From Dyella halodurans (GTDB lineage: Bacteria; Pseudomonadota; Gammaproteobacteria; Xanthomonadales; Rhodanobacteraceae): a stretch of 64,000 nucleotides of DNA. Positions 55,625 to 61,069 of this stretch are shown here, one piece after another; the stretch's first letter is position 1; each line of letters starts with the position of its first letter. The DNA lies in contig NZ_JAPDPF010000001.1 of the NCBI RefSeq assembly GCF_026283925.1, forward strand, positions 124,001 through 188,000, written 5' to 3'. The notes under the pieces are model-generated. The model was not told the DNA's origin. It made no database searches and saw only the letters and a program-made list of their open reading frames with translations. The position numbers were made by a program, and so were the translations under genes.

Positions 55625-56647
55625 ATGAAGCGCCAACCGTTGTCTGTCGTGCTCGTTGTCTTTGCGCTCGCGTGCTGGGCATGCGGGCGGGTGAATGCCG
55701 AGGTGGGTCCGCCAAGCTATGTGGCCGCCGCGCTGGCCGATCCAGCGCGACCCGTGGACGACCGCTCCCTGGATGGTGGCCGCAAGCCGGCCGAGGTGCT
55801 GGCGTTCGCGGGTATCAAGCCGGGCGACAAGGTCGTGGACCTGATGCCTGGGGCGGGCTACTACACCCGGGTCTTCAGCAAGATCGTGGGAGCCGGGGGT
55901 GTCGTGTACGCGGTGCAACCGGTGGAGATGGACAAGGCGGCGCCCAAAGGCCTGCAGACCCTGAACAGCTTTGCCGGCACGCCCGGTTACCCCAACGTCA
56001 GCGTGCTGGTGCAGCCGATAGCCGCGCTGTCGCTACCGCAACACGTCGACCTGGTCTGGACCTCGCAGAACTACCACGACCTGCATGATCCCTTCATGGG
56101 ATCGCCAGACATCGCTCGCCTCAACAAGGCCATCTTCGACGCACTGAAGCCAGGCGGTGTCTATATCGTGCTGGACCACGCCGCTGCTGCCGGAAGCGGC
56201 GTATCCAGGACAGACGACCTGCATCGCATCGATCCGGCCGTGGTCAAGGCCGAGGTGACGGCGGCGGGTTTTGAATACCTTGGTGAAAGCGACGTCCTGC
56301 GTCAGGCCGCGGACGATCATTCGACGCCGGCATTTGACAAGGCCATGCGCGGCAAGACGGATCGGTTCATCTACAAGTTTCGCAAGCCGGTGGGCGCAGC
56401 ATCGGCCGGGCGCGCGATCGTTCCGGCGATTCTCCATCAGCTTGGCGTCGGTCCCGCTGGCGCCCAACGCATCTGCAAGATAGTCGAGTCGCTGCATGAG
56501 CGCCTGCGCCAACTCAAGACGCTGCCGGCGGTCGCCGAAGCGGCCGGCATGCGCTTGTTGAGGCCGTGCCCTGGGCACGATTCGTTCGCATCGCGCGTAG
56601 TGCCGATCAGAACTTGCTGTGCTCAACATGGCGCTCTCGATGCATGA
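55625..56647 (+). CDS. secreted class I SAM-dependent methyltransferase with C-terminal extension
   Basis: A 340-aa protein with a signal peptide (VVLVVFALACWACGRVNA). SAM motif I is VVDLMPGAGYYTRVFSK, followed by VYAVQPVEM and VWTSQNYHDL, as in exported methyltransferases of the COG4798 type. Those usually end at the equivalent of FIYKFRKP (about residue 258). Here another 80 residues follow with a different character (RICKIVESLHERLRQLK, RTCCAQHGALDA) and run 41 bp into the 3' end of the convergent SLOG gene. A lost stop codon or a fusion with junction sequence is likely. Confidence 0.85.
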   Translation: MKRQPLSVVLVVFALACWACGRVNAEVGPPSYVAAALADPARPVDDRSLDGGRKPAEVLAFAGIKPGDKVVDLMPGAGYYTRVFSKIVGAGGVVYAVQPVEMDKAAPKGLQTLNSFAGTPGYPNVSVLVQPIAALSLPQHVDLVWTSQNYHDLHDPFMGSPDIARLNKAIFDALKPGGVYIVLDHAAAAGSGVSRTDDLHRIDPAVVKAEVTAAGFEYLGESDVLRQAADDHSTPAFDKAMRGKTDRFIYKFRKPVGAASAGRAIVPAILHQLGVGPAGAQRICKIVESLHERLRQLKTLPAVAEAAGMRLLRPCPGHDSFASRVVPIRTCCAQHGALDA

Positions 56648-58289
56648 GCGCCCATTCGGCATGCTCGCTGAGCGCGGCGTCGCCCAGTGAAATGAGGATG
56701 TCGCGCTGCTCGGCCGGGTCATGGGTTCGATCGAGCGCCGCGCGCGCTCCGGCAAAAATATGCTGCATGAAGCGGTATTGCCGGATCAGTTCCCGATCCG
56801 CCTTGCGGTACGCATAGGCCTCGCGCACGGCAGCCATGATCGACAGCACCGCCATCGTCATCACCAACGGCGTCTTGGTGGCCTCGGAAAGTTTCAGGGC
56901 GAACAAGGCCAGGAAGACGCTGATCGCGATGCCCGCCCACAGGCTGATCGCACCGATCGTCTCGGTGACGCGATTGAGCGAGGTGCGCTCGATGATCTTG
57001 CGTTCGAAGTAGTCGAGCTGCCCGGATTTCCCCGAGTTGCCTACCCATTCGTCGATGACCATGCCCAGGTCGGCGGTGGTGGTCCGGGGTGGTGGCCGCA
57101 GGCCGGCGGCACGCATCACGTTGCGAATCCAGCCCAACTCGATGTTTTGCCGCTGCAGAAAATTGCCGTGGGCGAATTCGTGATCGATCGAGGTCATCAC
57201 GCCGGCACGTCGCCAGTACCACTGGATGCGCAATCCTTCCGCCAGCGCGCGGTCGTCGAGATATTTGCGGTGCCAGCCACGGTGATGGGCGAGGAACGCC
57301 ACGACACCACCCGCCGCAAACAGGAACACGAATAAATAGATGAGATTGTTCTGTTCCGAGAGATGGGCGTAGAACGTGAAAGCGATGCCCATCATGGCGG
57401 CAATCGTGTAGGTGGCGCGCATGGCCACCATCACGCGTTTCTGGAAGTGCAGGGCCAGCCAGTCGGAGGCGCGAAACAGCTCTTCGATCGTCGCTATGGG
57501 AGACGAACTCGCCGATGGCGCCTGCGCTGCGGATGCCGCTATCTCCTCGGCGTACTTCGCGCAGTCGGCATTGAACTCCGACATGCGCGTGAACATCAGC
57601 CGGAACTCGGCCGGCATGTCGACCTCGGTGGAAGTGGTATCGGCGCTACGCCATAGCGTCTGCAGCGGCTGCAAGCCCTCGGCTACGCCGCCATCGAAGA
57701 CGTCGCGGGAGCAGACGATGTGGTAGATGAGGCGTTCGTCGCCGCGGCCCAGGATCTGGCGCGCGTCGCGGTGCCGTTCGAGCAGTCCGGGCATGGTGCC
57801 GGTCAGGTGATATTTCACGATCTGCGCCGTGCCGCCAAGCCGGCCCGAATCCTTGCCATCCCAGATCGCCAGCAGGATATGGCAATGGCTGGCAATGTAG
57901 ACACCTGCTTTCGCATACTGCCGGTCACGCTCTGCGCCGTGCGATTCAATCGCCTGCCTCGTTTCGCCCTTGCGCAACGGGAGTTGCACGACTTCGGCCT
58001 GGTCGCACAGCGCGTCAAAAGCGGCGCGCACGCCGGGGTCGCGGAAGTCTTCGATATAGAGATCCCTGGGTAGCGGCAGCGGCGCAATGAGATGCGCGCC
58101 GGCTGCCAGCGCTTCCTGGGCCACCAACTGATCACCGCCCTCGGCCAGCGCGCTGACCACGACGAGTTGGAGTTCCGGGAAGTCACGCGCAAGCCGCGCA
58201 AAAAAATCCCGCACGCGTTGCCGGATCGGTTCGACCTCGTGCGCGGGGATGTTGCGGTGGCTGGTAACACCGATAACCAGAGGCGTCAT
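56607..58289 (-). CDS. SLOG nucleotide-sensor protein with four TM segments (SLATT-like)
   Basis: A 560-aa protein. Residues 1-200 show a SLOG/LOG Rossmann core: PLVIGVTSHRN, LVVVSALAEGGDQLVAQEAL, GAHLIAPLPLP and LLAIWDGKDSGRLGGTAQIV. Predicted TM helices lie at about 285-309, 316-335, 445-467 and 474-491. The stretch after TM2 (DDRALAEGLRIQWYWRRAG) is like SLATT effector modules, which are membrane pores paired with nucleotide sensors in predicted conflict systems. Ligand and action are inferred. It is the last gene of the minus-strand unit with the TIR gene; start ATG at 58289. Confidence 0.82.
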   Translation of the reverse strand: MTPLVIGVTSHRNIPAHEVEPIRQRVRDFFARLARDFPELQLVVVSALAEGGDQLVAQEALAAGAHLIAPLPLPRDLYIEDFRDPGVRAAFDALCDQAEVVQLPLRKGETRQAIESHGAERDRQYAKAGVYIASHCHILLAIWDGKDSGRLGGTAQIVKYHLTGTMPGLLERHRDARQILGRGDERLIYHIVCSRDVFDGGVAEGLQPLQTLWRSADTTSTEVDMPAEFRLMFTRMSEFNADCAKYAEEIAASAAQAPSASSSPIATIEELFRASDWLALHFQKRVMVAMRATYTIAAMMGIAFTFYAHLSEQNNLIYLFVFLFAAGGVVAFLAHHRGWHRKYLDDRALAEGLRIQWYWRRAGVMTSIDHEFAHGNFLQRQNIELGWIRNVMRAAGLRPPPRTTTADLGMVIDEWVGNSGKSGQLDYFERKIIERTSLNRVTETIGAISLWAGIAISVFLALFALKLSEATKTPLVMTMAVLSIMAAVREAYAYRKADRELIRQYRFMQHIFAGARAALDRTHDPAEQRDILISLGDAALSEHAEWALMHRERHVEHSKF

Positions 58290-58388
58290 GTCGGCTCCCT
58301 GCGTCTGTTCCCTGGACAGCGGATGGCTGATGACTTGCTTGATCTTGCGCCGGCCGTTGACTCACCTCAAGCTTGGGTTTGACCTGAG

Positions 58389-58766
58389 CTAGTTGTTGTG
58401 AATGCTTGGACTTCCCCTCCCTGCGGCCCGTGGATCTGCCGCGCCACCGCCTGATGCGACCGGTGGCGTAGCAAAGAGCCGGTTTTCGTAGAGCACGGAC
58501 ACGTAATATTCGTAAGGGTTCGCCCCGATTGTATTGGTGTCGTCGATCGTGATCTGCGTGTTGCCGATGCGCAGATTGGCGAAGCAGGGCGGCGTGTTTA
58601 TACCGAAGTTAAGCGCGTTGAAAACGAAATTTTGAATCGGGGATGCCGGATCCACGGACCAGGTGATCACGTTGTTGCCTGTCGAGACGGGAAGTACTGC
58701 CGGGCTCACGGTCAGGACGGGAGCATTGGCCGGGCCCAGGCTCACGAGTACGCTTAGATTTGCCAT
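58389..58766 (-). CDS. small beta-rich protein, unrecognised
   Basis: A 125-aa protein with a strong AGGAG site 7 nt before its ATG. It is predicted mostly beta, with ITWSVDPASPIQNFVF, ANLRIGNTQITIDDTN and PYEYYVSVLYENRLF, in the style of an Ig-like sandwich. The last 25 residues are Gly/Pro/Ala-rich and look disordered, ending in SIHNN. It has no signal peptide or TM segment. It lies between the TIR and SLOG genes (116 and 99 bp) in the same direction, so it may be a structural or ligand partner. I do not recognise a named family. Confidence 0.7.
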   Translation of the reverse strand: MANLSVLVSLGPANAPVLTVSPAVLPVSTGNNVITWSVDPASPIQNFVFNALNFGINTPPCFANLRIGNTQITIDDTNTIGANPYEYYVSVLYENRLFATPPVASGGGAADPRAAGRGSPSIHNN

Positions 58767-58882
58767 GACTTAACTCCTATAAGGGGATGGGATGGCGATG
58801 GGCGGTCTGGGTCGGGCGGGTCGCCTACCGCCTTGGATAGCTGGTTCGAAGATCGGCCTCGGCCATTCGTCTCCATAAGCAT

Positions 58883-61069
58883 TCAATTCATCGCCTTCGC
58901 GATTCGCTGCTCGGCCTCGGCATCGAGCGGGTACGCCACTTGCTTGAGCGTGACCAGGGCGACGAAATCCGGTGCCCGGTAACCCATGCCCGCAAGCTTC
59001 GCCACGACCGGACGCGCCACATCGATATCGTCGAGCAGCAGTAGTGCGCCGGCCCAGGTTGAGAGCACATTGGGGTCATCGCTCGAGCTTGCGGTGGCGG
59101 CGATGACGTTGCGCGCTCGCACCCAAGCATCGTGCGCGGCAGCCGGGTCATGGCGTACGGCGGCGATCTGCCCGAGCACCGTGTAGGCCTGTGCCACAAG
59201 CAGCGTCAAGCTGCGATCGCTGGCGTTCTTCGCACGCAAGGTCTGGATGGTCGCCAACGCCGATCTGGCCAAGGGCTCGGCGGCATCCTGGTCAGCTTGC
59301 GCCAGCCGCAGCCGGGCGCTTTCCAGCTGGCTTTGCGCCAGTTCCTTTTGAAGGTCCTCCAGCGCGGGGTCCTTGGCCGCAAGCGCGCTCAAGATCTGAG
59401 TGGCGTCGCCGTTGGCGACGGCGGCGGCATCCCATTGACCCTGCTGTCGTAGCAGGCCGCCCAGTTGCTGGCTGTATAGCGCAACGTACTCTCGCCATTG
59501 TTCATTGGCAGGATCGAAGGCCACGAGTGCCTTGGCTCGGTCCACTGCCTGCTTCGTGTAGCTCGCCGCTGCTTCGAGATTGCCGCAAAGCGCAAGCGTA
59601 CGACCAAGGATTGCGTCACCGACCACGAGATCTTCCTGCGCCTGATGATTGCTCGGATCACGCGTGGCCAGCGCGACCTTGATGCGTTGATCATTACGAT
59701 AGGCTGCGATGGCCGCATCGAGGCGTCCTTGTTCCAGTGCCAGCTTGCCGAGACGATCCCAGGCATAGCCAAGCTCGGATTGCCACAGCGTGTTGGCCGG
59801 CTGTTTGGCGATCAGGCTCTGGAGGATTTTCAGGGCCTCGTCGTACTCGATCTTCGCGCCCACCAGTTCGTCGACCGCTTGTAGCACCTGGCCGGTATTG
59901 CTTCGTGCCATGGCGAGGGCGAACGCAATGTCGGTATTGGCGGGTTGCGCCGCGATCGCTTTTTGCAGCAGCGTACTGGCGGTCTTGAAGTTCTGGGAGG
60001 CGCGTTGAAGATCACCCTGGTACCAGTAGGTCTGCCCGACCCACTTCAGGCTGTCGGCATAGGCGGCCTGGCGGGCGATGTCGCCGGGCGCACGATGTAC
60101 CAGTTGGGCGGCGAGCGTGGCGGCTGCCTGATAGGCTTCGAGTGCCGCGGGAAGTTGATTCTGGTCGATGCGCACGCTGCCGATCTTCTCCAGCGCCGTG
60201 ACGCGCTGGGCCAGCCCCGCATCAGTGACATCGCTGCTCGGCAGCGAAGCGAAATAGGCCATGGCTTTGTCGCCAACGGCCTGCATGATGTCGAGCCGAT
60301 GCACCTCGCCGAGTTTGTCGCTGAGGTTGCCGAGCATGAAGCCCACCAGATCTTCGGCCTGTTTCTGGCGGCGCTCAGCAGCGCGGCGGGCGACCACGGC
60401 GTCGATCGCGAGGAAGGTGGTGACCAGCATGATGACGATCGCGACCGCGCTGACGGCAGTCATGCGCCGGTAGCGTCGCTGCAATTCGCGCTGTTTGAGC
60501 TGGTCGAAGCCCACGTCGAGCATGCCGGCGATCAGCTTCAACTTGGCGTTGATCTTGCCGTCCTTGCCAGGGCGCACGTCGGCGGCGATGGGCTCGGTTT
60601 GCTCCAGGCTCAACTCGCCGTCGTTGCCGAGTGGGTGGCGTAGCGCCGGTGCAAAGCATTCCTCGGCCTCGCGGCCTGGCAAGTCGCTCGCATTGGGTTC
60701 GCCATCGACGATCAGGCAAAAGATCCGCTCGCTGCGGCCCAGCCGCTTGAAGCTCAACACTTCTTCGTTGACCCAGTGCGACAACGCCGAGCGCGGCGAG
60801 CAGATCACGATCAAATTGGCGGACTCGCCGAGCGCCTCGTTGACCTTGCGACCCAGGTCGGTCGCGCTGGCCAGTTCGTCGCGGTCACGGAAGACCGGCG
60901 CCAGGTGCGGCGGAATCGTGCCGGCGGCCGTGACCTTGCCGACCAGACGTGACGGGACGCGGTAGGTCTCCAGGGCTTTGTGCAGCCAGTCGGCCCAGGT
61001 CCTGTCCTGGTGGCTGTAACTGATAAATGCCCGATACCGGAAAACCGGTTCCGCAGAGGCCTGGGTCAT
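58883..61069 (-). CDS. TIR domain, transmembrane, TPR-repeat protein
   Basis: A 728-aa protein. Residues about 11-165 form a TIR domain (RAFISYSHQDRTWADWLH, PVFRDRDELASATDLG, SALSHWVNEEVLSFK). Glu103, four after Trp99, is the expected NADase catalytic position. One TM helix (about 203-225, VSAVAIVIMLVTTFLAID) separates it from about 480 residues of helical TPR-like repeats (LGYAWDRLGKLALEQGRLDA, LYSQQLGGLLRQQGQWDA). The cytoplasmic TIR would face NAD+, with the TPR array as sensor or scaffold. The ATG at 61069 is chosen over a GTG at 61081. Confidence 0.88.
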   Translation of the reverse strand: MTQASAEPVFRYRAFISYSHQDRTWADWLHKALETYRVPSRLVGKVTAAGTIPPHLAPVFRDRDELASATDLGRKVNEALGESANLIVICSPRSALSHWVNEEVLSFKRLGRSERIFCLIVDGEPNASDLPGREAEECFAPALRHPLGNDGELSLEQTEPIAADVRPGKDGKINAKLKLIAGMLDVGFDQLKQRELQRRYRRMTAVSAVAIVIMLVTTFLAIDAVVARRAAERRQKQAEDLVGFMLGNLSDKLGEVHRLDIMQAVGDKAMAYFASLPSSDVTDAGLAQRVTALEKIGSVRIDQNQLPAALEAYQAAATLAAQLVHRAPGDIARQAAYADSLKWVGQTYWYQGDLQRASQNFKTASTLLQKAIAAQPANTDIAFALAMARSNTGQVLQAVDELVGAKIEYDEALKILQSLIAKQPANTLWQSELGYAWDRLGKLALEQGRLDAAIAAYRNDQRIKVALATRDPSNHQAQEDLVVGDAILGRTLALCGNLEAAASYTKQAVDRAKALVAFDPANEQWREYVALYSQQLGGLLRQQGQWDAAAVANGDATQILSALAAKDPALEDLQKELAQSQLESARLRLAQADQDAAEPLARSALATIQTLRAKNASDRSLTLLVAQAYTVLGQIAAVRHDPAAAHDAWVRARNVIAATASSSDDPNVLSTWAGALLLLDDIDVARPVVAKLAGMGYRAPDFVALVTLKQVAYPLDAEAEQRIAKAMN

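Follow-up and report, generated by a model that had tools for sequence, protein, structure and literature searches.

Thoeris, one of the closest described systems, combines one ThsA with one ThsB or more (PMC11204291). TIR, SLOG and SLATT domains are mostly known from conflict systems, SLATT has been predicted to be a nucleotide-responsive membrane effector and TIR-SLATT neighbourhoods have been noted in phages (PMC9503650 and PMC7159879). We report a unit of three genes in a 64,000-nucleotide stretch of Dyella halodurans (GCF_026283925.1, contig NZ_JAPDPF010000001.1, positions 124,001 to 188,000; hereafter the window), all on the minus strand, which encode a TIR protein with a transmembrane (TM) helix and a TPR array, a small beta-sandwich protein and a SLOG protein with four TM helices. 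The genes are real and the unit is conserved; the best explanation, with a probability of roughly 0.55, is a system where a TIR-made signal would act on a SLOG effector and where the receptor would have a dedicated partner.

As in Thoeris, the TIR gene lies beside one effector gene, and a single effector serves one TIR gene or several; moreover, SLOG is the receptor domain in one Thoeris type and the effector of the other is a membrane protein. However, ThsA is either SIR2-SLOG or TM-macro, whereas SLOG is here joined to two SLATT-like hairpins, the TIR domain sits on a TM-TPR receptor and there is an additional DP-EP-like partner. Canonical Thoeris was rejected on the effector, which gave no SIR2 or macro match at E≤1 in Pfam. 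Burroughs and coworkers reportedly noted SLOG-SLATT and TIR-SLATT associations in 2015, and the TIR-SLOG-SLATT link may in part already be in print there; the present locus differs in that SLOG and two hairpins share one polypeptide, the TIR receptor is of the TM-TPR type and a tail protein is present. No description of this three-gene unit was found among the matches listed in our literature search. Rap-Phr and other RRNPP receptors are TPR peptide receptors. The locus resembles them in that a TPR receptor gene stands beside a small-protein gene whose C-terminus would be the ligand, and some mini forms of this tail have signal-like N-termini; it differs by its Gram-negative membrane receptor with TIR, kinase or nSTAND1 outputs and by partners most of which are folded proteins some 110-200 aa long. 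The small beta protein is the new part here, and the receptor-ligand class is possibly new.

The TIR-TM-TPR protein (58883..61069; 728 aa from the ATG) matches Pfam TIR_2, ThsB_TIR and TPR above cut-off, and none of the PADLOC models matches it. Its TIR domain (Pfam range, residues 15-124; 60698..61027) carries Glu103 (codon 60761-60763), which we take to be the catalytic position from the spacing in SARM1 and plant TIR domains. This residue is invariant in the alignment of TIR proteins (83 of 83). The window TIR fold has the candidate catalytic Glu of TIR NADases, and the receptor probably makes an NAD-derived alarm molecule. The TM helix, the juxtamembrane module and the start of the TPR array (60125..60484) comprise a hydrophobic segment and a motif common to nSTAND1 and kinase receptors. 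The charge on the N-side of the TM helix exceeds that on the C-side in 62 of 64 cassette receptors, which predicts a single-pass receptor with a cytosolic TIR domain and a TPR array on the far side of the membrane.

The SLOG protein (56607..58289; 560 aa; structure model pLDDT 83, pTM 0.82) has a YpsA/DprA-type SLOG fold at about residues 1-225 (57615..58289), i.e. a Rossmannoid fold with the conserved nucleotide-pocket motifs of the SLOG superfamily. Two SLATT-like hairpins follow, at residues 270-354 (57228..57482; NCBIfam SLATT_3, 1.4e-5) and at matched residues 436-496 (56802..56984; SLATT_1, 3.8e-5), both under their curated cut-offs (25.1 and 23.7 bits vs 45 and 41). Its relatives match at E≤1e-3 only (SLATT_3 in 41/44, SLATT_1 in 39/44 and DUF4231 in 32/44). 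The intact candidate catalytic Glu, the SLOG domain and the SLATT-like membrane helices of the original prediction are thus all borne out, the last of them at the scores just given. We predict that the protein is a membrane pore built to sense NAD-derived molecules. Alternatively, it might degrade the TIR product and act as an off-switch, since SLOG folds often belong to enzymes (LOG, PpnN) and the GGT motif is invariant in 44/44 relatives. Where the LOG motif has an acidic residue, however, 44/44 have Ile or Val, and the two hairpins point to an effector, which makes an off-switch improbable.

Across 101 genomes the SLOG protein is present in 32, a TIR-TPR match covering the TIR domain in 33 and both in 31 (both/SLOG only/TIR-TPR only/neither, 31/1/2/67; Fisher p=1.7e-22, which is optimistic given that the genomes are related). 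In other words, 31 of the 32 SLOG genomes also have TIR-TPR vs 2 of 69 others. Within the genus, 14 of 14 SLOG genomes carry TIR-TPR and the small protein, and neither is found in any of the 6 others. Each SLOG genome has one full-length SLOG gene (32/32; G014 has an extra N-terminal fragment), and the 14 genus genomes have one (11 genomes), two (2) or three (1) TIR-TPR genes; in the window genome, TIR-small pairs occur on C11, C24 and C1 (three in all), alongside a single SLOG gene. In the best 80 of 242 SLOG loci found, a TIR gene lies within three genes of SLOG in 60, and TIR genes make up 71 of 435 genes near SLOG vs 2 of 500 far from it; gene distances in the fetched loci are approximate, the open reading frames (ORFs) having been called with a crude GC-frame score. 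The earlier proposal that the three genes form one unit therefore agrees with their conserved co-occurrence and adjacency, and no metabolic partner that would explain the SLOG gene was found. The proposed order TIR-small protein-SLOG holds in part: it is common, but no small gene was found in several cassettes (e.g. L036, L037), and TIR and SLOG are divergent in L030, L032 and L034.

The small protein (58389..58766; 125 aa) is a beta-sandwich folded like SO1698, which is a self-cleaving member of the DP-EP family (DUF1888, PF08985). It gives no PF08985 match at E≤1 in Pfam and stays under the cut-off, and 1 of 28 relatives matches at E≤0.1. As a search profile PF08985 was too narrow, reaching 1 of 369 genomes of the class, and profiles built in this analysis were therefore used instead. 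Aligned by hhalign, the profile of the TIR-linked partners (A2) and that of partners of mainly other receptors (A5, one TIR-linked row included) match each other (93.7%, E 1.9e-7), and A5 matches 3NJH at 5.1e-6. The body of the protein is variable and its C-terminal P-x-I-x-N tail (SPSIHNN, 58392..58412) invariant, with P120 and N124 as the sole invariant columns in 28 aligned proteins. The tail occurs in 82/6198 near the cassette (some species are taken twice, as L021-L052 and L053-L133 overlap) vs 1/3650 far from it. By their last 60 residues 66 of these tail proteins are unique, and the residue before the tail Pro is N in 36, D in 23, S in 4 and G in 3; the pattern allowed these four residues only, and T, Q, H and V forms were missed.

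Four ORFs of 63-68 codons with signal-like N-termini (L022:9782-9973, L057:9297-9494, L086:9657-9857 and L097:9423-9629; all unverified) end in the same tail and are too short for the beta fold, which suggests recognition of the tail itself. In D. humicola, the first of these and a truncated second SLOG N-terminus (~80 aa, 79% identical) both lie between the SLOG and the small gene (L022:9554-9973). We read the small protein as a putative ligand or gate of the receptor; this role was not described in the literature searched on DP-EP/DUF1888, where nothing relevant was among the matches listed.

In G445 (L145), a wHTH-nSTAND1-TM-TPR gene, whose juxtamembrane segment resembles that of the window TIR protein, is followed at a distance of 33 bp by a gene that scores above the Pfam cut-off for PF08985. 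We consider 74 TM-TPR receptors, i.e. all 14 non-TIR matches of the TIR-TPR search and 60 hand-picked from far longer lists (G580 was dropped as a duplicate of G641). A tail protein lies at most 300 bp downstream of 15/25 wHTH-STAND, 12/22 kinase, 14/24 TIR and 1/1 DUF4062 receptors, with L192 and L222 left out of this count for lack of room. Thus, across four output classes, a tail protein directly follows 42 of 72 receptors (the downstream intervals hold 93 short ORFs altogether), and a loose form of the tail was found in 36 of 3223 short ORFs elsewhere in the receptor loci. The tail is present in 33 of 58 newly fetched loci with room and in 9 of the first 14; the module profile (A6) may favour tail-bearing receptors, because 10 of its 13 rows, those from outside the window genome, were chosen for having a tail partner. 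Six TIR-type loci (L162-L167) stand outside these counts; the module was found in four, one of which has a tail partner. Output classes were assigned by simple patterns, and Pfam confirmed nSTAND1 in 2/2 and kinase in 2/2 tested. The tails differ by class, in part maybe due to shared ancestry: D precedes the tail Pro in 15/15 wHTH and 12/12 kinase partners, D-P-Q tails are found in 14/15 wHTH partners, and the residue after the tail Asn is acidic in 10/12 kinase and basic in 9/14 TIR partners.

Pairing of the small protein with TM-TPR receptors of several outputs implies that the TPR array comes with an encoded partner of its own. It also bears on the idea that the small protein is an antitoxin-like inhibitor of the TIR protein and not a ligand or sensor. 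The gene is adjacent, and in the 101 genomes it co-occurs only with TIR-TPR plus SLOG (21/21), as expected of an inhibitor; yet the small protein is paired with kinase and nSTAND1 receptors as well and its gene is missing from some TIR-SLOG cassettes, and we regard an inhibitor as unlikely. The SLOG gene follows one output only: it is present in the region of 14/25 TIR receptors vs 0/49 kinase, nSTAND1 or DUF4062 receptors (p=9.8e-9; the regions compared span 4.4-10.5 kb at non-TIR loci and, in most cases, 11.5 kb at TIR loci), and in all 5 TIR loci within the shorter-region set. This supports TIR-to-SLOG signalling.

As regards mechanism, the small DP-EP-like protein would occupy or gate the TPR array through its invariant tail, a trigger would alter the contact between tail and TPR array, and the TIR domains would then assemble. 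Judging from its family, Glu103 would turn NAD+ into an ADP-ribose-type signal, which the SLOG domain of the single effector would bind, and its two SLATT hairpins would open a membrane pore leading to cell arrest or death. A wider and more tentative reading, which we consider rather doubtful as a whole, is that a large family of Gram-negative receptors has DP-EP-like proteins as its encoded ligands. The shared TM-juxtamembrane-TPR module (with TIR, Ser/Thr kinase, wHTH-nSTAND1 or DUF4062 outputs) would recognise the tail of its neighbour, freed by Asp-Pro self-cleavage where the Asp is kept and presented intact in the N-P or S-P forms (S-P in the window), and the TIR-type receptors would pass the message on to a single SLOG-SLATT pore by means of an NAD-derived signal.

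Several observations weigh against a TIR-to-SLOG system with a dedicated receptor partner. No TIR gene lies within three genes of SLOG in 20 of the 80 loci. Thirteen of these are more distant relatives (L109 to L132), L053 (genome G012) has a TIR-small pair elsewhere in the genome, L064 is conspecific with L026, in which the TIR gene comes fourth, and in L068 the TIR gene is cut by the contig end; the remaining four are L055, L075, L099 and L101. The small gene is missing from some TIR-SLOG cassettes, and Ser119 precedes the tail Pro of the window protein where SO1698 has Asp116. D116A chains of SO1698 appear uncleaved, according to deposited mutant titles and chain lengths and to what Osipiuk and coworkers are said to have described in 2012. 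A signal-like N-terminus is found in just 6 of 66 tail proteins, which conflicts with a TPR array in the periplasm. For the small-protein dN/dS in the focal pair (below), the bootstrap range takes in values under 1, the small protein of the C24 pair has a dN/dS of 0.17 (dS saturated), and the surroundings do not form a defence island.

In the distant loci L114, L119, L127 and L131 the SLOG gene lies near a gene with a DUF4062-like start; the one scanned (L119) is an nSTAND1-TPR gene with a DUF4062 score just under the cut-off. Downstream of the distant SLOG gene in L119, L124 and L131 lie genes that, by eye, encode an MgtC-like membrane protein and a papain-like peptidase, and large STAND/TPR-type genes precede SLOG in L119 and L131; this is a different cassette.

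The small protein changes fast. Between the window and D. humicola it is 59% identical with a ratio of nonsynonymous to synonymous substitution rates (dN/dS) of 1.04 (bootstrap 0.59-1.94), vs 95% and 0.083 for SLOG and 93% and 0.16 for TIR, and for this focal pair only selection for change is suggested; elsewhere its dN/dS is about 0.1-0.9. In the C24 pair too it evolves faster than TIR (67% vs 87% identity). Over 19 species pairs with a SLOG identity of at least 72% (pairs not independent), the small protein has a dN that exceeds the SLOG value by a factor of 2.2 or more in 17 (exceptions L125-L129 and L084-L086). The dS of the cassette is 0.22-0.32 vs 0.48-0.61 in four flanking genes, as if the cassette had been exchanged as a unit, and the neighbours differ among most species (by eye; exceptions window/D. 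humicola and L029/L031). Two recombinase-like genes (by eye) adjoin the cassette in Frateuria terrea (L038 and L082). The C24 TIR-small pair is followed by a metallo-hydrolase-like gene (by eye; L138:10833-11924), not by SLOG, 94% conserved in D. humicola.

Phage defence is in our judgement the likeliest use of the system, at about even odds. Alternatively, the same chain may not be anti-phage: the receptor and tail proteins would sense neighbours, kin, peptides or the envelope, and SLOG-SLATT would alter the membrane or kill. That the same receptor module drives kinase and wHTH-nSTAND1 outputs is in keeping with such a role, as are the outward TPR array predicted by charge (62/64), the mini secreted tail peptides and the genomic surroundings. 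Among 79 neighbouring proteins (170-1000 aa; one tail protein of 80 listed was left out) from 16 loci, 16 PADLOC models matched at E≤1e-10, one protein each: 12 PDC-S06 models (best 9.9e-225, so that one neighbour or more must be a genuine member), LmuB, PbeA, PrrC and mad2, and a defence-island context was rejected. The mad2 match is the methyltransferase gene of the window (55625-56647), which is convergent with the SLOG gene and overlaps its 3' end by 41 bp (56607-56647). A phage or plasmid home was likewise rejected, as no full-length copy was found in these collections: no match in the phage collection, 13 plasmid records in which the match was confined to the N-terminus and never exceeded 80% of the query, and one partial contig in the viral collection. 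On two Rhizobium plasmids (records H8 and H9) the SLOG-like N-terminal match overlaps a gene annotated as a caspase family protein. Against a non-phage role stand the fast change of the small protein and the fact that TIR, SLOG and SLATT are mostly known from conflict systems (PMC9503650 and PMC7159879), and we consider this role somewhat unlikely.

If the TIR-to-SLOG reading holds, TIR signalling would gain a third effector architecture, SLOG plus SLATT. The exchange of output domains while the receptor module stays the same represents a natural experiment, in which the SLOG effector tracks the TIR enzyme and no other output. It also offers a testable role for the structurally solved but functionally orphan self-cleaving DUF1888 family, namely that of a tail-bearing partner of TM-TPR receptors. 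If true, this family would gain a function with a logic like that of the Rap-Phr receptors, and the switching-on of such TIR receptors would become directly testable.
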